Positions 36,454 through 64,000 of a DNA stretch of 64,000 nt are shown here, in pieces. The DNA lies in assembly GCF_947503125.1 (NCBI RefSeq), contig NZ_CANNCR010000003.1, forward strand, positions 62,001 through 126,000, read 5' to 3'. The stretch is from an uncultured Metabacillus sp. (GTDB lineage Bacteria > Bacillota > Bacilli > Bacillales > Bacillaceae). Each line of letters starts with the position of its first letter. The first letter of the stretch is position 1. The notes under the pieces are model-generated. The model ran no database searches, was not told where the DNA came from, and saw only the letters and a list, made by a program, of their open reading frames with translations. Position numbers and translations under genes: made by a program.

Positions 36454-36487
36454 AGGCGGTTGCGGCGGATATCATTAGAAAAGAATT

Positions 36488-36860
36488 CGTTGACAAAATC
36501 AGAATAGTGCCGATATATTCTGAAATTCGCTGATAAAATCAGAATAACGCCGATATATTCTGAAATTCGCCGATAAAATTAGAATAACGCCGATATATTC
36601 TGAAATTCGCTGATAAAATCAGAATAACGCCGATATATTCTGAAATTCGCCGATAAAATTAAAATAACGCCGATATATTCTGAAATTCGCTGATAAAATC
36701 AGAATAACGCCGATATATTCTGAAATTCGCCGATAAAATCAGAATAACGCCGATATATTCTGAAATCCGCCGATAAAATCAGAAAAACGCTGATATAAAT
36801 TGAAATCCGCTGATAAAAACAGAAAAGCGCCGATATAATTCGAAATCCGCCGATAAAATG
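36488..36860. repeat. Tandem 40-nt (2 x 20 nt) repeat array B
   Basis: About 9.3 direct copies of a 40-nt unit (starts at 36488, 36528, 36568 and so on), degenerating at the right end. Each unit is two 20-mers, CGCCGATATATTCTGAAATT and CGCTGATAAAATCAGAATAA. TCAGAATA and TATTCTGA in each unit form an 8-bp hairpin with a 9-nt loop. There are no unique spacers, so it is not CRISPR. On the minus strand the 20-mers start TATCRGCG, as in arrays A and C. Confidence 0.92.
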
Positions 36861-53676: not shown

Positions 53677-53705
53677 GAGTTTTCCCACTAAAAATAGTAT
53701 ATTTT

Positions 53706-53816
53706 AAAACTGAACTTAAGCTTTAATCATATGGGTGAAAAAATGATGTGACCATATTTAGTTAAAATTGGTCACATCAGCCATATGATTTGCAAATGAT
53801 CAATTGATTCAGTTTT
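53706..53816. repeat. Nested palindromic element downstream of pgi
   Basis: Three nested inverted repeats share a centre: AAAACTGAA / TTCAGTTTT (ends), AATCATATGG / CCATATGATT, and TGATGTGACC / GGTCACATCA. The internal loops are asymmetric. It could be a small mobile palindrome, an RNA element or a complex terminator of pgi. Confidence 0.65.
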
Positions 53817-54049
53817 CATTTCCTGACAATTAAAGTTATAAATTAACAAAATAATAAATCGAATAAATAACATTAAATAAGCGTTTTCAATTACAAAACT
53901 TCCAAATGGAATGTCAACGCAGCACGTAATATTAGATTACTTTTTCGAGAATGTTATTGTTAACATATTTAGATATCGCGAAAGTATATTTATTGAAGGG
54001 TACCATTTTTATTTCAGGTTTATTCCGAAGCATAAACAGGATCGCATTA
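53817..54049. other. AT-rich gap without recognised features
   Basis: About 230 bp between the nested palindrome and the Gly-Ser gene. A TTACAAAACTTCC-like region and short frames exist, but none has a convincing ribosome site or family resemblance. Confidence 0.4.
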
Positions 54050-54286
54050 TCAATCAGAGCCGGAGCCAGAACCAGAGCCGGAGCCAGAGCCGGAACCAGA
54101 ACCAGAGCCAGAACCAGAGCCGGAACCAGAACCAGAACCAGAGCCAGAGCCGGAACCAGAACCAGAGCCAGAACCGGAGCCAGAATGTTTACCATTAGCT
54201 TTTGATCCTGGGTTTCTACTTAGGAATTCTTCATTTCCAGCATCTTTTGCCTCTTTAAGTATCTTTTTTATCTCTTCTCTTCCCAT
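54050..54286 (-). CDS. Gly-Ser dipeptide repeat protein, divergent from cotH
   Basis: 78 aa. AAAGGTGG is 8 nt before the ATG. A 34-residue N-terminal region ([20 protein letters not shown], then [14 protein letters not shown]) is followed by 21 Ser-Gly dipeptides and a final Ser-Asp. The repeat tract is encoded by mixed 6- to 12-nt DNA repeats. Other frames give Arg/Gln- or Leu/Val-rich nonsense, and only this frame has a start, a site and a normal N-terminus. Next to a coat kinase it is a good candidate coat protein and kinase or glycosylation substrate. It could instead be a linker-like structural protein. Confidence 0.72.
54055..54186. repeat. Simple DNA repeat encoding the Ser-Gly tract
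   Basis: Interwoven copies of GAGCCGGAGCCAGAACCAGA-like sequence (12-nt and 6-nt periods). Likely variable in length by slippage in multiples of 6 nt, which would keep the frame. Confidence 0.85.
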
Positions 54287-54402
54287 CTATAAAACCACCT
54301 TTCAACAATGATCCTTAATAAATAAGGTAGTGTATTTTATGAAATATTTTTTAATTGGTTCTAAACTAGTTCATTAATTTATTATCAAACGCCCTATTTT
54401 TT

Positions 54403-54411
54403 CATATGATA
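54403..54411 (+). promoter_or_regulatory. Candidate sporulation -10 (CATATGATA) before cotH
   Basis: CATATGATA resembles the -10 of mother-cell sigma factors (SigE CATANNNT, SigK CATANNNTA). It lies about 30 nt before the cotH start, with GGGAGG between. The -35 is not convincing, so assignment is tentative. Confidence 0.3.
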
Positions 54412-54439
54412 GTGAGAAAAGTGGGAGGCAATGATGTAG

Positions 54440-55525
54440 ATGCAGAAAAATACTATACCTACATTAAGTATTTCTATTCAACCCAAACTTCTTGAATTTT
54501 TAGAAGGAAATGTTTGGCATGAAGAACCTATTCCTTCAAAATTAGTTGCAAACAATACTTCATACGATATCGGTATTACTTATCGTGGAAATCACACACG
54601 AAAATTTAGTAAAAAATCTTATAAAATCGACTTTGGAACATTTAATGAGGAATTTGCAGCGCGTGAAGTTCACCTTAATGCAGAATATTGTGATCCTTCT
54701 TTCATTCGAAATAAGCTATCTTTTGATTTTTTTAAGCAAATAGGGAGTATTTCACCTGATTGCAGGTATGTTTTAATTGAGGTTAATGGAATGCCTTCAG
54801 GAATTTACTTGCAGCTTGAATCTGTCGATGATTTGTTTTTGCAAAAAAGACAGCTATTATATGGACCTATTTATTATGCAACAAATCATCAAACTAACTT
54901 TTCTTTATTAACCACGAAGGGAGAGCCCAAAGCTTCACTTATTTCAGGATATTTGCGCAAATTAGGAAATGATGAGGATGACCTTGATTTAGAAAGTCTA
55001 ATAATAAAAATCAATACGATTCCGCGATTTGATTTTGGCAAAGAAATTGTAAAGTACTTGGATGTCAAAAAATATTTAATTTGGCTTTGTGGTGTGGTTT
55101 GTACACAGAACTATGATGCATTCATTCAAAATTATGCCCTTTATCGAAATGGTGAAACAGGGTTGTACGAAATGATTCCATGGGATTTTGATGCAACATT
55201 TGGAAGGAATTGGAATGGAGGAGTTATGAAGTTTAATCGGGTGCCCATAGAAGGATATAATACACTCACTGCACGACTTCTTGATGTAAAGGAATTCCGC
55301 GTTCAATATCGCTTACTCCTAGAAGAAATATTAGACAAATATTTTACAGTTTCGGAATTTGAACCCCGAATTACAAATCTCCACAAGCTATTGCGCCCCT
55401 ATATATCATTAGATCCTTATAAAAAGAATACCATTGAGTTATTTGATCAAGAGCCAGAATTTATCCTAGAATTTATTTCGAATCGCAATGATTATCTTAG
55501 AAAACATCTTAATAATCTGAAATAA
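54440..55525 (+). CDS. cotH: CotH, spore-coat protein kinase
   Basis: 361 aa, essentially the length of B. subtilis CotH. YDIGITYRGNHTRKFSKKSYKIDF and HLNAEYCDPSFIRNKLSFDFF open the kinase-like fold; LIEVNGMPSGIYLQLESVDD and NYALYRNGETGLYEMIPWDF, then DATFGRNW, hold the Asp residues equivalent to the metal-binding and catalytic loops. CotH phosphorylates serines of CotB and CotG in B. subtilis. Here its divergent neighbour is a Ser-rich repeat protein. GTGGGAGG precedes the start by 10 nt. Confidence 0.93.
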   Translation: MQKNTIPTLSISIQPKLLEFLEGNVWHEEPIPSKLVANNTSYDIGITYRGNHTRKFSKKSYKIDFGTFNEEFAAREVHLNAEYCDPSFIRNKLSFDFFKQIGSISPDCRYVLIEVNGMPSGIYLQLESVDDLFLQKRQLLYGPIYYATNHQTNFSLLTTKGEPKASLISGYLRKLGNDEDDLDLESLIIKINTIPRFDFGKEIVKYLDVKKYLIWLCGVVCTQNYDAFIQNYALYRNGETGLYEMIPWDFDATFGRNWNGGVMKFNRVPIEGYNTLTARLLDVKEFRVQYRLLLEEILDKYFTVSEFEPRITNLHKLLRPYISLDPYKKNTIELFDQEPEFILEFISNRNDYLRKHLNNLK

Positions 55526-55591
55526 AAGGGAAAAAGTACTAAAATATAATGCAAAAGGCTCTCAGCATTTTTTATGTTGGGAGTCATTTTA

Positions 55592-55770
55592 GTGTGCCGG
55601 GAATGTTTATCAACTTGGTTGTGAGAGTCATTATGTGTGGGGGATACGAACAATTAGATGAAGGCAAGGGTGCCCCCTTGGTAACGCGGAATCTGAAGGC
55701 AACCCTGGGGACAAATCCTCTGTCTGAGGTACACGAAGCAAATTTGAAGCTCACTGTTATAGGACGAGTG
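55592..55770 (+). mobile_element. Group II intron-like 5' (domain I) fragment
   Basis: Starts GTGTGCCGGGAATG, close to the GUGYG 5' end of group II introns. GGCAAGGGTGCCCCCTTGG, ACGCGGAATCTGAAGGCAAC and CTGAGGTACACGAAGCAAAT follow, as in domain I of bacterial group II introns. No maturase and no 3' domains V/VI follow; the gtaB-type gene begins immediately beyond. An accidental 93-codon frame crosses it (55549-55830) but is better explained as RNA sequence. Confidence 0.6.
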
Positions 55771-55780
55771 ATCCTTTTGT

Positions 55781-56608
55781 CTATTCATCCTCTTGCTCTG
55801 ATTTGCTCATTACTTTTTGGATTAGCTTGAAATATCCTTCTTCAGTACCAATGTCATAACGTTTGCTGGAGACTTCCACTCCGTAGCACTTTTCTAGCTT
55901 TAAAAATTCTTTTATTGAATCGGTCAGTTGAACTTCTCCTCCAACTCCTTTGTGTCCCTTTTCTAAATGTGAAAAAATAGATGGTTCAAAAATGTACCTC
56001 CCGCTTACCGCCAAATTAGATGGGGGATTGGAACGAGGTTTTTCTACAATATCATAAATCTCATAGATATTATCTTTTATATCAATTCCTTTTACTACCC
56101 CATAGTTCTTTAATAATTTTTCATTTACTTTTTCTAGGGCAATTACTGTAGATTGATAATTTTTATATACGTCTAAAAGCTCTCGTAAAGCTGGCTGATC
56201 ATTTTTTAGAAATATATCATCAGGAAGAAGAACAGCAAATGGATCTTTATTAGCAAATCCCTTGCCTAAAAGTATCGCCGCACCTAGTCCATCTGCAAAG
56301 GGTTGGCGTATATATTGAATAGAAATAGCAGGCTCCACGATTTTTTTCAATAAATGATGCTTCCCTGTCTTTTCTAAAAAAGCTTCATATTCTAGTGAGC
56401 GGTCAAAATAATCTAAAATCATATTTTTAGTGCGGGATACCACAATTAAGATTTCTTCAATTCCTGATTCTATGGCTTCTTCAACAATATATTGTATGGC
56501 TGGTTTACCTGCAATGGGAAACATTTCTTTTGGAACTACCTTTGTTATTGGTAAACTTCTCGTTCCATAACCTGCAGCAGGAATGATTGCTTTTTTTACT
56601 GTCTTCAT
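55781..56608 (-). CDS. ytdA: UTP-glucose-1-phosphate uridylyltransferase (GtaB/YtdA)
   Basis: 275 aa. KKAIIPAAGYGTRSLPITKV and VPKEMFPIAGKPAIQYIVEEA are the nucleotide-binding start of the family, with the conserved Lys; LLPDDIFL and GEVQLTDSI follow. Makes UDP-glucose from UTP and glucose-1-P. The context (next to ytcABC and cot genes) favours the sporulation-linked YtdA over the vegetative GtaB. The second of two ATGs (56608) is better spaced from GGAGAGG. Confidence 0.87.
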   Translation of the reverse strand: MKTVKKAIIPAAGYGTRSLPITKVVPKEMFPIAGKPAIQYIVEEAIESGIEEILIVVSRTKNMILDYFDRSLEYEAFLEKTGKHHLLKKIVEPAISIQYIRQPFADGLGAAILLGKGFANKDPFAVLLPDDIFLKNDQPALRELLDVYKNYQSTVIALEKVNEKLLKNYGVVKGIDIKDNIYEIYDIVEKPRSNPPSNLAVSGRYIFEPSIFSHLEKGHKGVGGEVQLTDSIKEFLKLEKCYGVEVSSKRYDIGTEEGYFKLIQKVMSKSEQEDE

Positions 56609-56669
56609 CATAAACCTCTCCTCTTCACTTTCTATATTTTAATCTATAATATTTACTTGGTAATTTGTC

Positions 56670-56820
56670 CGATCAGAAAAGGTGAGAAAGTATAATTTTT
56701 TACTTAGTATTGGTGTCTATCTGCAGCGTCTAGCCAATTTAGAATTAAAGGCAAAGAACGCCTTCTATTCATGAGCGTCTTATTTGCCTTAGGCTGATCA
56801 AGGCGTTTGCGCTTTTTTTC
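56670..56820. repeat. Dispersed structured repeat R1, copy 5
   Basis: Flank AAGTATAATTTTTTACTTAG, then TGTCTATCTGCAGCGTC, hairpin GAATTAAAGGC / GCCTTCTATTC, and GGCGTTTGCGCTTTTTTT. More diverged than other copies. Confidence 0.8.
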
Positions 56821-56824
56821 AAAG

Positions 56825-57010
56825 GTAGAAAGTATAAAATTTTGTACTTAGTTTTGGTGTCCAGCTCCAGCGCCTATCGCCTATCAAACTTCAGATCATC
56901 TCCCTACGATAAGTCAACATCGGTTCGCTTCGCTTACCGTGTTTCCTTTATCTCAGTCGATGCTCCTCCAGTTTGTACGGCGATGACCAAGGCGCTTGCG
57001 CATTTCTTAT
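56825..57010. repeat. Dispersed structured repeat R1, copy 6 (different centre)
   Basis: Has the shared flank AAAATTTTGTACTTAGTTTTGG, the left end TCCAGCTCCAGCGCC and right end GGCGCTTGCGCATTTCTT. The middle is unrelated to other copies (56880-56985) and carries GGTTCGCTTCGCTTACC-like self-complementary sequence. The R1 ends therefore seem to carry different cores. Confidence 0.7.
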
Positions 57011-57121
57011 TTTTGCACCCATTTCATTCTAAATACTTAACCCACTTTCACGTTTTGTATAAAGCTAAATAAGATATTAGTATATTGAATGTTTCTAACA
57101 TATAGCCAATGAGGGTTGATA

Positions 57122-58408
57122 ATGATGAAAATATGTGTCATTGGTACAGGGTATGTTGGTTTAACTACTGGTGCTGTGTTGGCGGACTTAGGTCATGAGG
57201 TTCACTGTGTTGATAAGAATAAATTGAAAATAGAGAAATTACTGGAGGGGGAAATCCCCATCTATGAACCAGGATTAAAGAAACTGATTGTCCGAAATAA
57301 AAAAAGGGGTCTCCTTCATTTTTCAACTGATATTCAGGGCGTGATGAAAGACTGCCCAATCCTTTACATCACAGTCGGTACTCCCACAAATAAGGATGGA
57401 AGTCAAAACCTGACTGCCATTATAGAAGTCATAAACACCATAGTACAGACGACGATAACCTCCCATAAAACCATAATCACTAAAAGTACGGTATTACCAG
57501 GAACAAATGAATGGATACATCAGTCTTTAATAGAAAAAGGGATTGACTCTAGTATGTTTGACGTTGTATCCAACCCAGAGTTTCTTAGAGAAGGAAATGC
57601 TGTATTTGATATGATGAATCCCGATAAAATTGTGTTGGGTGCAAGAAGAACGAAACCTATTGAAATAGTAAAAACGCTGTATGAGAAGCTGCATGCCCCT
57701 TATATTATTACTTCATTAACGGGTGCAGAGATGATTAAATATGCCAGTAATGCCTTTTTGGCAACAAAAATATCATTCATTAATGAAATGGCACGTATTT
57801 GTGACGCCTATAATGTAGAAATATCCCATATTGCAAATGCGTTAGGAACGGACAAAAGAATTGGTCCTTATTTTCTTAATGCCGGATTAGGCTATGGTGG
57901 ATCTTGTTTTCCAAAAGATGTGCGGGCATTAGAATATGCTGCCAAACAGAAAAATATCGTTCCTGAGATGTTAATGGCTGTTCAAAATGTGAATGACTCT
58001 CAAATTGATTTATATATTGATAAACTAGTGAATAAATTAACAAGCCTCGATGGGAAAAAAATGACCGTTTGGGGATTATCCTTTAAGCCTGAAACAGATG
58101 ATATACGCGAATCAAGATCATTATTATTAATCGATAAATTGCTCGAAAGAGGGGCAGAGATCCATGCCTATGACCCTATTGTCCATTTATATGAACCTGC
58201 CATTACCATTCATCAAGATATGTATGAATCTATTAAAGGAGCAGACGCATTAATTATTGCTACAGAATGGAATCAGTTTAAAACCGTTGATTGGAAAAAG
58301 GTAAAGGATTTTATGAAGGGAAATATTTTAGTGGATGGCCGGAATATTATTGACCCTAAAATCGTAACAAGCCATCAATTTCATTATATTGGGGTGGCTA
58401 GAAAATGA
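57122..58408 (+). CDS. ytcA: UDP-glucose 6-dehydrogenase, YtcA-type
   Basis: 428 aa from the ATG 57122 (GAGGG 6 nt upstream). MKICVIGTGYVGLTTGAVLA is the NAD-binding start; VVSNPEFLREGNAV and the catalytic-Cys motif GYGGSCFPKDVRALEYA follow, with WGLSFKPETDDIRES in the UDP-binding domain. Converts UDP-glucose to UDP-glucuronate. First gene of the ytcA-ytcB-ytcC operon. Confidence 0.93.
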   Translation: MMKICVIGTGYVGLTTGAVLADLGHEVHCVDKNKLKIEKLLEGEIPIYEPGLKKLIVRNKKRGLLHFSTDIQGVMKDCPILYITVGTPTNKDGSQNLTAIIEVINTIVQTTITSHKTIITKSTVLPGTNEWIHQSLIEKGIDSSMFDVVSNPEFLREGNAVFDMMNPDKIVLGARRTKPIEIVKTLYEKLHAPYIITSLTGAEMIKYASNAFLATKISFINEMARICDAYNVEISHIANALGTDKRIGPYFLNAGLGYGGSCFPKDVRALEYAAKQKNIVPEMLMAVQNVNDSQIDLYIDKLVNKLTSLDGKKMTVWGLSFKPETDDIRESRSLLLIDKLLERGAEIHAYDPIVHLYEPAITIHQDMYESIKGADALIIATEWNQFKTVDWKKVKDFMKGNILVDGRNIIDPKIVTSHQFHYIGVARK

Positions 58409-59358
58409 GAATTATCGTAACGGGAGCTGCTGGGTTTATCGGTTCTCACTTATGCGAAAGGTTATTAAAGGAAGAACAGAATGTAGTTATTGGCATTGAT
58501 GGCTTTATTGACCCTTCCAAGAAGCAAATTAAATTAAAAAATTTAGAAAATCTTCTGATCCATCCCCGTTTTCAATTTTTTAATCAAAATTTATTAGAAA
58601 TTGATTGGAGTAAAATTCTTTCTAAAGATGATGTAATTTTTCATTTAGCAGCTGTGCCTGGTGTTCGTTCTAGCTGGGGGAACAACTTCCAATTGTATGT
58701 AGAAAATAATATACTCGTTACCCAACGACTGTTAGAGGCTTGTAAGAATGTTCCTTTAAAGAAGTTTATTTATGTTTCCACCTCTTCTATATATGGAGAA
58801 AAGGTTGGCATGGTTTCGGAAGATAGTATGCCTTCCCCTCTTTCTCCCTATGGAGTAACAAAGCTTACAGGTGAGTATTTATGTAAGGTATACAGTGAAA
58901 ACGATGGCCTTCCTATCACCATTCTTCGATATTTTACTGTTTATGGACCTAGACAGCGGCCTGATATGGCGTTTCATCGATTTATTGAATGCATGTTAAA
59001 GAATAAACCTATTCCAATATACGGTGATGGGAAACAAACACGTGATTTTACGTTTGTAAGAGATTGTGTTGAAGGAACTGTTGCCGCTCTTTATGCGGAG
59101 CATACCCTTGGAGAAACAATTAATATCGGTGGCAAGGAACGTAAATCTATATTAGAAGTCATTGAAATATTAGAAGAGATAATGGGGCAAAAAGCAACCC
59201 TTGACTTTATTGGGAAAACTCGTGGGGAACCGCGACATACTTGGGCAGATATTTCAAAAGCGGAGAAAATACTTCAATATAAGCCAGTAGTGTCATTAAA
59301 AGAGGGGCTACTCCATGAAATAGAGGATTTACTAGTTATTTATAAGGGGGTTGAGTAA
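58405..59358 (+). CDS. ytcB: NAD-dependent UDP-sugar epimerase, YtcB-type
   Basis: 317 aa extended SDR. MRIIVTGAAGFIGSHLCERL binds NAD; VSTSSIYGE and YGVTKLTGEYLC hold the Ser/Thr and the Tyr-x-x-x-Lys pair; NIGGKERKSILEVIEI lies in the substrate part. Following a UDP-glucose dehydrogenase it is likely a UDP-glucuronate 4-epimerase giving UDP-galacturonate. Starts inside the ytcA stop (4-nt ATGA overlap). Confidence 0.9.
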   Translation: MRIIVTGAAGFIGSHLCERLLKEEQNVVIGIDGFIDPSKKQIKLKNLENLLIHPRFQFFNQNLLEIDWSKILSKDDVIFHLAAVPGVRSSWGNNFQLYVENNILVTQRLLEACKNVPLKKFIYVSTSSIYGEKVGMVSEDSMPSPLSPYGVTKLTGEYLCKVYSENDGLPITILRYFTVYGPRQRPDMAFHRFIECMLKNKPIPIYGDGKQTRDFTFVRDCVEGTVAALYAEHTLGETINIGGKERKSILEVIEILEEIMGQKATLDFIGKTRGEPRHTWADISKAEKILQYKPVVSLKEGLLHEIEDLLVIYKGVE

Positions 59359-60548
59359 TGAGACTCGCTTTTATTTGTACAGAAAAGCTCCCTTCTCCTG
59401 CCATAAAGGGTGGAGCTATTCAAATGATGATCGACGGTGTAACGCCATTTATCAGTAAAGAATATAATTTTACTATTTTCTCTGTCACCGATCCATCCCT
59501 TCCTGATTATGAAGTACGTAGCGGCGTACAATACATTCGATTACCGCCTGAAAATTATGAAGTAAATATTGCTAAAATACTTGCTGAAAAAGCGTTTCAC
59601 ATTGTTCATGTTTTTAACCGACCATTAAGTATCCCCCTTTATAAAAAGGCTTCCCCATCAAGCCAATTTGTTTTAGGACTTCATAATGAAATGCTTTCCG
59701 AAAAAAAAGTTTCTCTGGAGAAAGGGAAGGAAATTGTAAACTCTGTGGAAAGAATTGTTACTGTAAGTAATTATATAAAACAAACTGTTTTGGAGCGGTT
59801 TCCTGAAGCAGAGTCCAAAATAAAAGTAGTTTACTCAGGAGTAAATTTAATGGAATATCCCCCTGTCTGGTCGCCAGAGGGAGAACAAATTCGCAAGGAA
59901 TATCGACAAAAATACAATATCGGAGATAAGAAGGTCATATTATTTGTTGGAAGGCTCACAAAAAATAAAGGTCCTCATCTTCTGATATCTGCCTTTAAAG
60001 CCATTGCTAAAAGACATCCTAACGCGGTCCTTGTGATTACAGGGGGAAAGTGGTTTAGTGATGATGGGATCAATAAATATATTCGTTATTTAAAGAAATT
60101 AGCCCAACCATTAGGAGACAAAGTTATTTTCACGAATTTTATTCCTGCAAAGGAAATTTCGAATATTTTTTTAATGAGTGATATTTTCGTCTGCTCTTCC
60201 CAATGGCAAGAACCGTTAGCACGGGTTCACTATGAAGCATTTGCTGCTGGAATTCCAACTATCTCAACTAATAGAGGAGGAAATGCAGAGGTCGTTTCCC
60301 ATAAAGAAACTGGCTATTTAATAGAGGCGTACGATCAAGTTAGTGAATTTGCAAAGGGAATCCATTTTTATTTGATGAATCCTGTTACAGCAGATAGAAT
60401 TACAAGAAATGCTAGAAAATTGGTGGAATCAAATTTCCAATTCCATCATGTAGCAAGCCGATTAACCAACGTTTATTCTGAATTGATTCCAAAACTCAAG
60501 GAAGATCAATTTCATAAAAAGTTTGGATTGCCGTTATTTCGATTCTGA
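59358..60548 (+). CDS. ytcC: Family 4 glycosyltransferase, YtcC-type
   Basis: 396 aa GT-B fold. MRLAFICTEKLPSPAIKGGA (N-domain), VILFVGRLTKNKGPHLLISA and the C-domain donor-binding EPLARVHYEAFAAGIPTIST with the E-x7-E pattern. It starts at the ytcB stop (1-nt overlap). Related along its whole length to CotSA encoded 500 bp away on the other strand, so the two are paralogues. Presumably adds the uronic-acid sugar to a coat or crust component. Confidence 0.9.
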   Translation: MRLAFICTEKLPSPAIKGGAIQMMIDGVTPFISKEYNFTIFSVTDPSLPDYEVRSGVQYIRLPPENYEVNIAKILAEKAFHIVHVFNRPLSIPLYKKASPSSQFVLGLHNEMLSEKKVSLEKGKEIVNSVERIVTVSNYIKQTVLERFPEAESKIKVVYSGVNLMEYPPVWSPEGEQIRKEYRQKYNIGDKKVILFVGRLTKNKGPHLLISAFKAIAKRHPNAVLVITGGKWFSDDGINKYIRYLKKLAQPLGDKVIFTNFIPAKEISNIFLMSDIFVCSSQWQEPLARVHYEAFAAGIPTISTNRGGNAEVVSHKETGYLIEAYDQVSEFAKGIHFYLMNPVTADRITRNARKLVESNFQFHHVASRLTNVYSELIPKLKEDQFHKKFGLPLFRF

Positions 60549-60587
60549 TTCATTTAACAATATTTAGGGTAAGCAAAAAGTTAAACC

Positions 60588-60634
60588 GTACCCTATAGGG
60601 TAGACTTTATTTTTATGTCTGCTTTATAGGGTAC
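60588..60634. repeat. GTACCCTATAG palindrome, copy 2
   Basis: GTACCCTATA / TATAGGGTAC with AGAC / GTCT inside and a T-rich loop, 40 nt after ytcC. Same design as the element at 20495-20549. It likely terminates the ytcABC operon. Confidence 0.7.
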
Positions 60635-60658
60635 TTATATGTATAATGATAAAGAATA

Positions 60659-60860
60659 CTTGGCTAGCGCCATGCATTAAGTTTGCCGGGGATTGCCTAG
60701 TTGCCCTTATACTTTAAACTTAAAATTGTCCTCTACGTCGAACTTTCATCTTTGCTGACAATTTATGCTTTCTTAAAGTGTAAAGAAAAATTGGCTAGCG
60801 CCATGCCTTAAGGCGCCGGCGATTGCCTAGTTGCATTTATACTTTTTTAACGTGAAAAAA
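60659..60860. repeat. Composite repeat: hairpin repeat R2 copy 2 and a deleted copy
   Basis: TTGGCTAGCGCCATGC-TTAAG...GATTGCCTAGTTGC occurs twice (60659 and 60791). After the first comes a full R2 element with AAATTGTC (60723-60730) / GACAATTT (60757-60764) and a 26-nt loop. After the second (60826-60860) only the outer parts remain, as if the hairpin were excised. Confidence 0.7.
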
Positions 60861-60951
60861 TAGTCAAATAGGAATAGAAGGTAAAGAGCACTTTTTATTC
60901 CTATTTGACTTATGCTTGTCGTCGAATGCTTAGCGCCTTGTGCTTTTCTTA
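60861..60951. repeat. Dispersed structured repeat R1, copy 7 (right part)
   Basis: AGTCAAATAGGAATAGAAGGTAAAGAGCACTTTTTATTCCTATTTGACTTATGC hairpin region, then GTCGAATGCTTAGCGCCTTGTGCTTTTCTT. The left CTAGCTCCAGG end is missing or replaced by R2-related sequence. The stretch quoted is read in pieces of the published R1 pattern, with AGTCAAATAGGAAT / ATTCCTATTTGACT as a 14-bp stem. Confidence 0.8.
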
Positions 60952-61015
60952 AAATGTCCTTTCCAAAGGGGAAACTTTAGGTTGCCAGCCAACCTTTTAC
61001 CCGCCATTCAAAAGG

Positions 61016-62413
61016 TTAAGATTCAATCGTATTTACCTTGATAGCCATATTTTCTTTATTAAACCATGGCGTTGAAGGAAGAGGGAATTTCTTAATTGGC
61101 TTCTTTAGTTTTTCTCGAACTTGCTTCTTCTCTAATGGGGTCTTTTCAGTTGCTGTTTTTTCAGTTAACGGTTGCTCATCTTTCTTTTCGTTAATTATTG
61201 AAGGAGTACTAATGTCTTTCTCATCATGAATTATTGAAGGACTGCTAATGTCAATGTTATTTTTAATTTTATGCTCAATCCCACTCCAAACTTGGGATAT
61301 ATCATCGATGACTCGATTCCAGTTATGATTTTTTTCTGCAATGTGCCGTCCATATTGTCCCATTTCCCTACAGAGGGAAGGACTAGAGAGTAATTTAGAT
61401 AAGTGTGTGACAAATTCCTGAGGATCGTCTGGTTTCTCAACGATAAACCCATTTTTTCCAATCTCGATTATTTCAGGGTTTCCTCCACGGGCAGTTGTCA
61501 CGATTGGCAATCCTGCTGCCATTGCTTCATAATGTACCCGGGCTAACGGTTCTTCCCATTGAGAAGGACAAACAAAGATATCTGCAGCAGCGAACCAGTC
61601 TTGAATTTGATCTGGCTGCACAAAACCAGTAGTGATCACTGGGATAGGAAGGCGGTCTGCAATCGCTTTAATATAAGAAATGTAATCGGTCATTCGATTA
61701 TCACTAAAGCCTTTGCTTCCCATTAGAACTAAAGCCACATTTGGGTGCTTCTTAGCTAAATCCACCATCGCTCGCAGGAGCACATCTGCCCCCTTGTTCA
61801 CTGAAAGCCGCCCAGCAAACAAAATAACCTTTTTTGATTCAAGGCCGTGTTTTTGACGCATGGAAGCTCTAATTCTTTTGCCTTTTTCCGAATATGTTGG
61901 AACAAATCGATCCAGGTCCACACCAGAATAAATCGTTTGAATTTTAGGTTGGGCATCAGGGTAAAGCTTTACTATTTCTCCTCCAATATAATTACTTATT
62001 GTAATAATTTTATCTACTTGATTAATTGCATTCTGAGCTTCTTCAGGATCTATTTTTTCCCTCTTAAACATATCATTGTGCATGCTTAAAATGATACGTG
62101 AACCTGGTGCCGCTTCCCGTATCGGTAAAACGAGGCGGGGGCGATTAAAAATGTGAATTAAGTCAAAGGTATTGTTTTTAAGAAAATTTACAACACCCTC
62201 CTGATATGTCTCCAATAACCCGCCTGGGACCCTTACATAATGAACACCATCTTTTGTTTCCGTATCTGGTAATGTTTCATCGTCCCTTCCTATTATTGTA
62301 ATAGTATGGTTTTTTCTTAAGTTTGGAATAGCTCCAGCGATGAATGTTTGGATTGCCCCCCCTTTTACTGGTGGCACTGGGAGTTTTTCCGTACTAACTA
62401 TTAGTATTTTCAC
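61016..62413 (-). CDS. cotSA: CotSA, spore-coat glycosyltransferase with C-terminal extension
   Basis: 465 aa, GT4 family. MKILIVSTEKLPVPPVKGGA, VILFAGRLSVNKGADVLLRA and EPLARVHYEAMAAGLPIVTT are present. The first 380 residues cover the whole enzyme (B. subtilis CotSA is about 377 aa). The last 85 form a Ser/Thr/Lys/Glu-rich tail with two near-copies of DISSPSII-(H/N)-(D/E)-EK. It starts with GTG overlapping the cotS stop. Assigned to the spore coat by homology and by its pairing with cotS. Confidence 0.88.
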   Translation of the reverse strand: MKILIVSTEKLPVPPVKGGAIQTFIAGAIPNLRKNHTITIIGRDDETLPDTETKDGVHYVRVPGGLLETYQEGVVNFLKNNTFDLIHIFNRPRLVLPIREAAPGSRIILSMHNDMFKREKIDPEEAQNAINQVDKIITISNYIGGEIVKLYPDAQPKIQTIYSGVDLDRFVPTYSEKGKRIRASMRQKHGLESKKVILFAGRLSVNKGADVLLRAMVDLAKKHPNVALVLMGSKGFSDNRMTDYISYIKAIADRLPIPVITTGFVQPDQIQDWFAAADIFVCPSQWEEPLARVHYEAMAAGLPIVTTARGGNPEIIEIGKNGFIVEKPDDPQEFVTHLSKLLSSPSLCREMGQYGRHIAEKNHNWNRVIDDISQVWSGIEHKIKNNIDISSPSIIHDEKDISTPSIINEKKDEQPLTEKTATEKTPLEKKQVREKLKKPIKKFPLPSTPWFNKENMAIKVNTIES

Positions 62414-63507
62414 TTCCTATTTCCCCCTCTCCATTCTTTCCGCAATTGCTCAATTATTGGCCATTTTGTCTTATCAATTTCTACGATTCTTTGGACAACA
62501 GAATCCAATTCACTATTTAAAGCTATGGTTGGCTCAATCAACATTTCTTTTACATTTTTATAATATAAATTAGGTAATGAAAAATCGATCAATAGAATTT
62601 CAAACAAGTCGTCTGTGATAGGGTTCGCCTCATTGTATGCTTCCAGCATTCCTACAATCCAATTGATATCCCATTTTCCTAGATCATCCATAGAGCCGGT
62701 AATGAGCTTGCGTAAATCTCGAATAGGAATATCATACGCTACTCCATCAAGGTCGATGATCCACATGCCGCCTGGTCCCATTTGTCCATTCGACCATCCA
62801 TAATCCTGATGCACTAATCCCCATTCCTTATTTCCTTTGGAGACCATTTGTTGATATGAGGATTGTTCCAGCATAGTTAATGCTTTTTTTGCTTGCTCCT
62901 CAAATATATCTACTGTGTTTAAAATGGTCCTGCTAGCGGGCATTTCTGAATATAATTTGGCTACATCTTTAAACCAGGTCATTTTTCTAACAATCTTTTT
63001 ATATGCATTTGGCCATCGAAATAGTCTTGAAGCATTTTCTGCTCCTTTAGGAGGAACATATCCTTGAGAAAGTTGATGAAATTCGCCAATGGCATTGCTT
63101 AGTAGCTTTGCCCCTTCAATATCTGCAGATACTTGATAAAGAGGTTCAATCCAATCAGCAACAAACCAGATTTTCCCTCCCATTTCCACTATATTGCTGC
63201 CCGATTTTGTCTTTACAATCGGTGGTACTCTAGCCTTTTTAACATTGACTAAATATTCCTGTGCACCAATGCTAAATAAACTCCTGGATGGTCTCCGATG
63301 GAGTATTTTTAAGCTTTTTGGCCCCTTGCTCGTATTGATTTTCCATATTAGTCCACCCTTATCCGCCTTTGTTGTAATAACTTCCATGCTGTTCACTTTA
63401 AAGTCGTATTGATTAATTACTTGTTGAGCCATTTCCTCTATATATTGTGGAACGTATAAATCATCTAATATTTCATCTGAATCCCATGGTGTAATAAGCT
63501 GCTCCAA
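62410..63507 (-). CDS. cotS: CotS, spore-coat kinase-like protein
   Basis: 365 aa of the CotS/YtaA/YutH family with an aminoglycoside-phosphotransferase fold. WGLVHQDYGWSNGQMG carries the catalytic-loop pattern (HxD...N) and MWIIDLDGVAYDIPIRDL the metal-binding Asp; WKINTSKGPKSLKILHRRP is the N-lobe. The catalytic residues look intact, so it may be an active kinase. TTG start about 11 nt after GGAAGGAATG. Same operon as cotSA. Confidence 0.88.
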   Translation of the reverse strand: MEQLITPWDSDEILDDLYVPQYIEEMAQQVINQYDFKVNSMEVITTKADKGGLIWKINTSKGPKSLKILHRRPSRSLFSIGAQEYLVNVKKARVPPIVKTKSGSNIVEMGGKIWFVADWIEPLYQVSADIEGAKLLSNAIGEFHQLSQGYVPPKGAENASRLFRWPNAYKKIVRKMTWFKDVAKLYSEMPASRTILNTVDIFEEQAKKALTMLEQSSYQQMVSKGNKEWGLVHQDYGWSNGQMGPGGMWIIDLDGVAYDIPIRDLRKLITGSMDDLGKWDINWIVGMLEAYNEANPITDDLFEILLIDFSLPNLYYKNVKEMLIEPTIALNSELDSVVQRIVEIDKTKWPIIEQLRKEWRGGNRK

Positions 63508-63650
63508 AACTAGTCATTCCTTCCCTGGGTATTTTTGTTTTTACATTGTATTCACTTAGTGAAAAATTGGGTGGACATTTGTCCATAGATAAAAATAATT
63601 GTCTATAAGTTCATTTGAATTAAAATGAATCTAAAAGTTATCGAGGGAGG

Positions 63651-63765
63651 ATATCGGCGGAATAGAAAATAAAATAGCGGAAGTAAGGTTGATATTGGCG
63701 AAATAGAAATAAGAACGGCAGAATTGAAGTTGATATCGACGTAATCGAGCAATGATTGGCGCGAG
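63651..63765. repeat. Periodic repeat array C (about 20.5 nt)
   Basis: GCG-type motifs at 63651 (ATATCGGCG), 63672, 63692 (ATATTGGCG), 63713, 63733 (ATATCGACG) and 63754, in steps of 21, 20, 21, 20 and 21. Two of every pair also form a 41-nt tandem unit with GAATAGAAA / AAATAGAAAT between. Degenerate relative of arrays A and B. Confidence 0.7.
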
Positions 63766-63860: not shown

Positions 63861-64000
63861 ATGATCGAGATTGAATCAAGATTAGAAGGGCAAACGATTG
63901 AATTGTATGATCTTGAACAAAAGCTAAAGCCTATGGGGTATTCAATTGGCGGCAATTGGGAGTATGATCATGGATATTTTGATTATAAAATTGATTCTCA
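63861..64000 (+). CDS. yugN: YugN-like protein, 3' end outside window
   Basis: AAAGGGGG is 7 nt before the ATG. The visible 46 residues, MIEIESRLEGQTIELYDLEQ and KLKPMGYSIGGNWEYDHGYF, match the N-terminus of the YugN-like family. In B. subtilis yugN is close to pgi; here about 10 kb of spore-coat DNA lies between. Function unknown. Confidence 0.8.
   Translation, partial: MIEIESRLEGQTIELYDLEQKLKPMGYSIGGNWEYDHGYFDYKIDS

Follow-up and report, generated by a model that had tools for sequence, protein, structure and literature searches.

Genes and Features at the cotH Locus

Within the window, that is, the whole 64,000-nucleotide stretch of Metabacillus DNA that was analyzed, cotH (54440..55525, + strand) encodes a spore coat protein kinase (PF08757, E 4.6e-82; PDB 5jd9, E 9.7e-105) with a conserved catalytic Asp, and its own genome holds no other CotH match at E ≤ 10. 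On the opposite strand lies an ORF of 78 aa with an ATG start (54050..54286, stop included, − strand), here named SG-type cotG, or SG gene; 153 bp separate the two start codons, in agreement with the divergent arrangement and the spacing of about 150 bp given in the initial annotation.

The SG protein has two parts. Residues 1–34 (54185..54286, −) make up its N-terminal CotG module, or head, supported by hhalign and a structure model, with one predicted helix followed by FLSRNPGS. The model as a whole is poor (mean pLDDT 56.8, pTM 0.22), and the helix predicted at residues 3–24 is the one element taken from it; the mean pLDDT is 83 for residues 1–10, 72 for residues 11–20, and 60 for residues 21–30. 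Residues 35–78 (54053..54184, −) are the (Ser-Gly)n tract ending in SD, defined by TRF and by residue and codon counts: Ser contributes 22 of its 44 residues, Gly 21, and Asp one, as the earlier count of 22 serines in the last 44 residues had indicated, and the final Asp is the only charged one. Ser is encoded by 16 TCT and 6 TCC codons, Gly by 11 GGC and 10 GGT codons, and TRF reports the DNA as tandem repeats with a period of 12 (score 164) and of 30 (score 213). Thus, the SG protein is modular with tandem repeats, which are terminal and not central. Two sub-cut-off Pfam matches of the 78-aa protein, TrAA12 (E 0.00047) and CFAP143 (E 0.043), were the only ones obtained; both were rejected as below cut-off and judged compositional, and NCBIfam gave no match at E ≤ 0.001.

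Occurrence of the SG Gene and Constraint on Its Tract

Searching named genomes with the window CotH retrieved eight loci, all with a divergent repeat gene upstream (8/8); five of these genes encode (SG)n proteins (Cytobacillus kochii, C. stercorigallinarum, Bacillus sp. CHD6a, Bacillus sp. RO2, and B. pinisoli), and three encode Arg-rich CotG-like proteins. The five, the window, and genome G417 make up the seven SG genomes discussed below; G197, G134, and G128 were taken as repeat records of CHD6a, RO2, and B. pinisoli, and were counted once. The SG gene is divergent from cotH at all seven SG loci, which bears out the co-occurrence that the initial annotation had proposed to look for among the cotH neighbors of relatives; the seven form one CotH clade, and counts over them are far from independent.

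Regarding its distribution, the SG head gave strong matches (E ≤ 5.7e-15) in 5 of the 397 genomes of the order search, and, of 398 genomes sampled from the class, its own genome alone contained it. At E ≤ 0.01, the order search reached 9/397 genomes; the weak matches in G440 and G209 adjoin cotH, and those in G299 and G399 were taken as chance, as were six other class-search matches (E 0.003–0.008) in frames of 583–646 aa. An SG-type CotG is described in none of the titles and abstracts listed for the CotG/CotH, spore-coat, and ytc/CotSA literature; the tables of Saggese 2016, said to be the main survey of CotG-like proteins, may hold one.

The SG proteins are 69, 78, 79, 116, 142, and 167 aa long, with one more, from RO2, cut by the contig end; these between-genome lengths agree with the early guess that the repeat changes length in frame. 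Over the 221 hexamers of the seven loci, bases off the local majority amount to 131/442 at third positions and to 15/884 at first and second positions (0, 2, 23, 3, 10, and 108 along T-C-N-G-G-N), counts in which the copies of an array are not independent of one another. Since the variation is mostly at third positions, the tract is coding and not a drifting microsatellite: it is under coding constraint. The simple 6-nt based repeat, with other frames open too, could suggest a low-complexity ORF that arose by chance on a microsatellite near cotH; this is exceedingly improbable, because it is already contradicted by the comparative evidence, namely the third-position bias, the conservation of the nonrepeat head and of the promoter, and the synteny at 7/7 loci.

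A second alternative takes the SG tail as an unmodified neutral spacer, of which length and flexibility alone matter, with phosphorylation being dispensable. Gly-Ser sequences have the character of flexible linkers, and the SG lengths vary widely. In the available text of PMC9765600, a role of length and flexibility is proposed for CotG repeats, and less charged repeats in B. subtilis CotG hold permeability nearer to the wild type than the deletion does. However, a pure spacer should accept other residues, whereas Ser occupies almost every second tract position at 7/7 loci, with the few first- and second-position changes given above, and the kinase gene always adjoins; on balance, we regard this reading as improbable.

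Promoters in the Intergenic Region

As for its expression, the SG gene is preceded by a sigma-K-like promoter, ACC-N15-CATAAAATA (54333..54359, −), kept at 7/7 SG loci as ACC-N15/16-CATAAAATA 46–47 nt before the start codon; a similar site stands at 49 nt at L059, the (GKGT)n locus described below. The strict pattern AC-N15..17-CATANNNTA has two matches in the window, both strands included, and one of them is this site (54359-54333); it is called sigma-K-like for its resemblance to the sigma-K consensus.

For cotH, a CATATGATA block (54403..54411, +) is a weak candidate for the −10 element; it is identical at 6/7 SG loci, with CATAACATA at L005, and is a relaxed match only, with a 14-nt spacer. 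A strict sigma-K-type promoter for cotH gave no match on the + strand from pgi to cotH; in B. subtilis, the cotH promoter is sited beyond cotG, according to the available text of PMC4130616. Just 5′ of cotH, at 54431-54439, there is a two-codon ATG/GTG-NNN-stop at 7/7 SG loci, one base farther in L002 and L009; it was rejected as a translated ORF and is probably untranslated because it starts 2 nt after the Shine-Dalgarno sequence.

Homology of the N-Terminal Module to CotG

Six aligned SG heads share the invariant residues M1, A13, G17, F21, L22, and N25-P-G-S28, and the classical CotG heads resemble DIxxAVxxAxxxGLxxYLYQEP. Comparison of the two sets with hhalign (7 SG heads, 26 classical heads) gave a probability of 95.9% and a score of 35.2, with an E of 6.4e-9 that stands for one comparison; the homology covers the first ∼27–30 residues. 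The best score of 200 column-shuffled SG alignments was 13.9, a control that leaves in the bias from having picked out the heads with a loose pattern that suits either set, and two of them by hand.

With an HMM of the 26 classical heads, searched against 6880 translated stretches, the window SG protein stands directly below the CotG-type matches (E 0.068), of which the lowest two, L061_47 and L066_76, are CotG-type on inspection; 7/7 SG proteins are matched at E ≤ 5.1, and six of them, together with L059, rank above the first unrelated stretch (E 3.1). With the reciprocal HMM of the SG heads, L044 (E 3.8e-5) and L059 (E 0.0027) are matched, both of which have basic repeats and lie divergent from cotH. 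Below these two matches, unrelated stretches at E 0.17 and E 0.33 outscore the classical heads. The L060 head has an E of 2.1 with the SG HMM and no match at E ≤ 10 with the classical one, so that its relation to the SG heads is only suggestive. The E-values of single proteins (0.068 to 5.1) are weak, and the head homology is drawn from the comparison of profiles, from the way the SG proteins rank together, and from the constant position of the module.

The C-terminal module of YWKxGN type, a feature seen in many classical members here and not a published criterion, is absent, by reading, from the six complete SG proteins, and absent too in L060 and L066; N-terminal-module homology, as a criterion for CotG, is likewise a product of the present analysis. 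The available text of PMC9765600 describes CotG-like members as having no common primary sequence and repeats that are positively charged "in most cases", names a weakly positive member in B. licheniformis, and does not present charge as obligatory.

Judged from its sequence, the SG protein is the CotG of its locus, in which the basic repeats are swapped for (SG)n and the usual C-terminal module is missing; this assignment follows from the homologous N-terminal module together with the graded series of repeats in the CotH tree, presented in the next section. The initial annotation saw no recognisable CotG at this locus, which is wrong in view of the head homology, and its proposal of a separate functional replacement for a missing CotG is not supported by either line of evidence.

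The CotH Kinases and the Repeat Series

Duplicates (L039-L042, L047, and L055-L058) were excluded from the HMM ranks, the tree, and the charge and pairing counts, and L080 from the last three; removal of 25 further near-duplicate rows left 76 of 101 for the tree and the charge analysis. In the resulting CotH tree (76 proteins, quick method), the seven SG CotHs form one clade (100*), which is joined next by L059, beside a (GKGT)n protein (94), and then by L060, beside an RRGT-type protein (99*); the SGRR-type loci L044, L101, and L103 and the GSKGS-type locus L105 are associated more loosely (84).

A divergent CotG head gene occurs at 72/101 CotH loci, as detected with an HMM trained on part of those loci. 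At the other 29, such as L104, L116-L120, L124, and L125, the ∼400 bp upstream contain no CotG head gene at E ≤ 0.01; at least one of them, L130, is a second CotH copy.

The charge per residue of the repeats is −0.07 to +0.08 at the seven SG loci versus a median of +0.33 at 47 others, of which two are at or below 0.05; hence, the positively charged repeats that are a usual CotG trait are lacking in the SG tracts. Ser plus Thr accounts for 0.37–0.49 of the SG tracts versus a median of 0.26 and a maximum of 0.50 in the repeat regions of the 47 others. In the SG tracts, basic charge is lost and acceptor density is kept high or raised.

Regarding the kinase, 7/7 SG CotHs retain the NYD-motif Asp; it is equated with D228 of B. 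subtilis CotH, numbered with the residue that precedes KNQ as Met 1, and the D228Q form is the inactive one in the available text of PMC7821199. At CotH residues ∼147–163 (window ∼54878–54930), 7/7 SG CotHs read NH(Q/K)TNFSLLTTKG in place of the acidic DDDANFSLMSDLER of B. subtilis CotH; this stretch is a possible adaptation to an uncharged substrate. The charge of this CotH loop correlates with that of the repeats with rho −0.42 (n 54), but with rho −0.13 (n 47) without the SG clade. Charge matching between CotH and repeats was consequently set aside as a lead only, and the presence of a positive stretch in several CotHs with no adjoining CotG head gene also speaks against it.

CotB is the second substrate known for CotH. 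A profile of the CotB N-domain has no match at E ≤ 0.001 in 7/7 SG genomes and matches 59 of 78 CotH-bearing genomes; genomes without a match are thus 7/7 of the SG set versus 12/71 of the others with CotH (Fisher p 1.9e-5, relatedness ignored). CotB is also unmatched in 18/20 other genomes of the window genome's own genus, and for this reason its absence is partly background and, for the window genome, may be no more than that.

The Spore Glycan Cluster and Its Island

Downstream of cotH stand genes of the kinds found in the ytaA/cotS-cotSA-ytcC-ytcAB-ytdA cluster: a ytdA-like UTP-glucose-1-phosphate uridylyltransferase gene (55781..56611, −; PF00483; TIGR01099 9.6e-92, 307 bits, below the cut-off of 326.8), a ytcA-like UDP-glucose dehydrogenase gene (57116..58408, +; PF03721; TIGR03026 7.7e-140), a ytcB-like NAD-dependent sugar epimerase gene (58405..59358, +; PF01370 2.3e-56), and two GT4 glycosyltransferase genes matching PF00534, one ytcC-like (59358..60548, +) and the other cotSA-like (61016..62413, −), with a gene for a CotS/CotI-family spore coat kinase-like protein (62410..63507, −; TIGR02906 6.8e-90) at the end. 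The C-terminal tail of the cotSA-like protein varies: the protein has 465 aa in the window versus 528–561 in four other SG genomes, part of the difference being due to longer assumed starts, and its gene contains a 36-bp repeat. Elsewhere in the window, at 36484-36859, a 40-bp tandem repeat runs for 9.4 copies with 90% match.

These genes, cotH, and the SG gene lie on an island of approximate extent 53677..63650, bounded by pgi (PF00342) on one side and, on the other, by a YugN-family gene (PF08868) starting at 63861. The island is missing at the pgi/YugN site in 4/4 relatives examined (G016, G018, G005, and G014), and the gap between the two flanking genes measures 361 bp in G016 versus ∼10.2 kb in the window. 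At the right edge, a 41-bp repeat occupies 63650-63745, and the empty site of G016 has a short match to it containing GATATCGGCG.

None of the other 20 own-genus genomes has a match to the window CotH at E ≤ 1e-30; at 1e-10, eight of them show remote or broken matches. In G014, of the same genus, at L134 1860-2327, there is a broken CotH remnant, a C-terminal part with two stops, at a different site. The window Pgi is 87–98% identical within its genus, 85–88% to G128, G134, G197, and G417, and 78–79% to the two Cytobacillus; conversely, CotH identity is 84% with the two Cytobacillus and 73–76% with the other four SG genomes, and the corresponding values for ytcC are 83–85% and 74–77%. Because the order of identities for CotH and ytcC is reversed relative to Pgi, the ∼10-kb spore-surface island looks to have come by horizontal transfer, with no direction assigned; contamination is unlikely, since the flanks on both sides are 91–98% identical to G016.

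The linkage of this cluster to cotH makes glycosylation a serious rival of phosphorylation, as the bracketed "or glycosyltransferase" of the initial annotation had allowed. According to this rival, the (SG)n tail would carry glycans: uronate-containing sugars, products of the ytdA-, ytcA-, and ytcB-like enzymes, would be attached to its serines by the ytcC- and cotSA-like GT4 enzymes, and CotH would act elsewhere or additionally. In animals, alternating Ser-Gly repeats of the serglycin type serve for glycan attachment, an analogy to the SG tract for which no homology is claimed. All seven SG genomes have ytcB- and ytcC-like genes after cotH and a cotSA-like gene near it (for the two Cytobacillus, ytcC and cotSA were placed by matching contig coordinates), four of the seven have ytdA and ytcA at the cotH cluster, and a CotS-family gene is present in the cluster in 5/5 SG genomes read far enough. 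Furthermore, the 18–20 kb around the cotH of L142 (GKGT), L143 (RRGT), and L145 hold no relatives of the window cluster genes, and the ytcC genes of the SG genomes form their own group with 74–100% identity, the window ytcC being 74–85% identical to the other six and at most 60% to those of the other genomes searched.

Against the glycan carrier, this type of spore cluster was already known, and cotH has no occurrence in the available main text of the report describing it (PMC2860764), which suggests another job for these enzymes; besides, CotH pairs with CotG-like genes also in genomes without linkage to the cluster. Among the best 25 of 34 and of 41 NCBIfam families for the two glycosyltransferases, none reached its cut-off, and SdgA, the only protein O-glycosyltransferase for Ser repeats among them, scored ∼30 bits versus a cut-off of 800. 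Taken together, we consider the glycan carrier rather unlikely. A combined reading, in which the tail would be both a phospho- and a glycan-acceptor, a spore-surface Ser-Gly glycan scaffold on a transferable cassette, is less probable; if true, the cassette would join a kinase, sugar-nucleotide enzymes, and glycosyltransferases, and rebuild the spore surface of a recipient that has no CotB.

Proposed Role of the SG Protein

The reading that we favour, with some reserve, is that the SG protein is the CotG of its CotH, and that its neutral, Ser-dense tail is both a substrate of this kinase and a spacer. The sigma-K-like promoter would place the putative coat protein in the mother cell at a late stage; there, the helical head may dock the protein in the coat or to CotH, and CotH would phosphorylate the flexible, uncharged tail at many sites. 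In an ordinary CotG, the phosphates counter the charge of a basic chain; the SG tail, neutral to begin with, would become a polyanion, and in a spore without CotB it could be a phospho-acceptor and at the same time a spacer within the outer coat. That the head docks, that the protein sits in the coat, that CotH phosphorylates the tail, and that the tail works as a spacer are inferred by extension from work on B. subtilis CotG and CotH, in the available texts of PMC9765600, PMC7821199, and PMC4130616.

In conclusion, the CotG/CotH module was already known, and what is new is a variant of it with charge-free Ser-Gly repeats. CotG repeats are discussed as highly positive (PMC9765600, available text), and a naturally occurring CotG that retains head and kinase while lacking charge parts charge from acceptor density, so that the two can be tested against each other; it also offers a very simple candidate substrate for CotH. 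Moreover, the common head provides a sequence criterion for the CotG family, and the make-up of the island suggests joint mobility of a spore glycan cluster and a kinase with its substrate.

Comparison with Known Systems

The SG protein shares with B. subtilis CotG and CotG-like proteins the short-range divergence from cotH, the head module, the adjoining CotH kinase, and long Ser-containing tandem repeats. It differs from classical CotG in that its repeats are uncharged (SG)n and not Lys/Arg-rich, in that the tract reaches the C-terminus without a YWKxGN-type module, and in that its genome has no CotB match.

Next come the (GKGT)n protein of G209 (L059, cut at the contig end) and the RRGT-type protein of G176 (L060), which are also divergent from cotH, in their case from those of the closest outgroup CotHs (66% and 59% identity, respectively) and have Gly-containing repeats, with a related head in L059. 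Unlike the SG tracts, both repeats are still basic, and that of L059 has Thr instead of Ser; unlike the SG genomes, G209 and G176 have CotB, and the ytd/ytc cluster was not seen adjoining their cotH, the 53% ytcC-like gene of G209 being away from it.

ExsB of the B. cereus group, likened here by description and not by sequence, is also CotG-like, with many phosphorylated residues reported in its repeats and a CotH as the probable kinase; it differs in being phosphorylated on Thr (PMC7821199, available text). Finally, the cluster downstream of cotH differs from the ytaA/cotS-ytdA cluster as described in the available text of PMC2860764 in that SG-type cotG and cotH are joined to it here.
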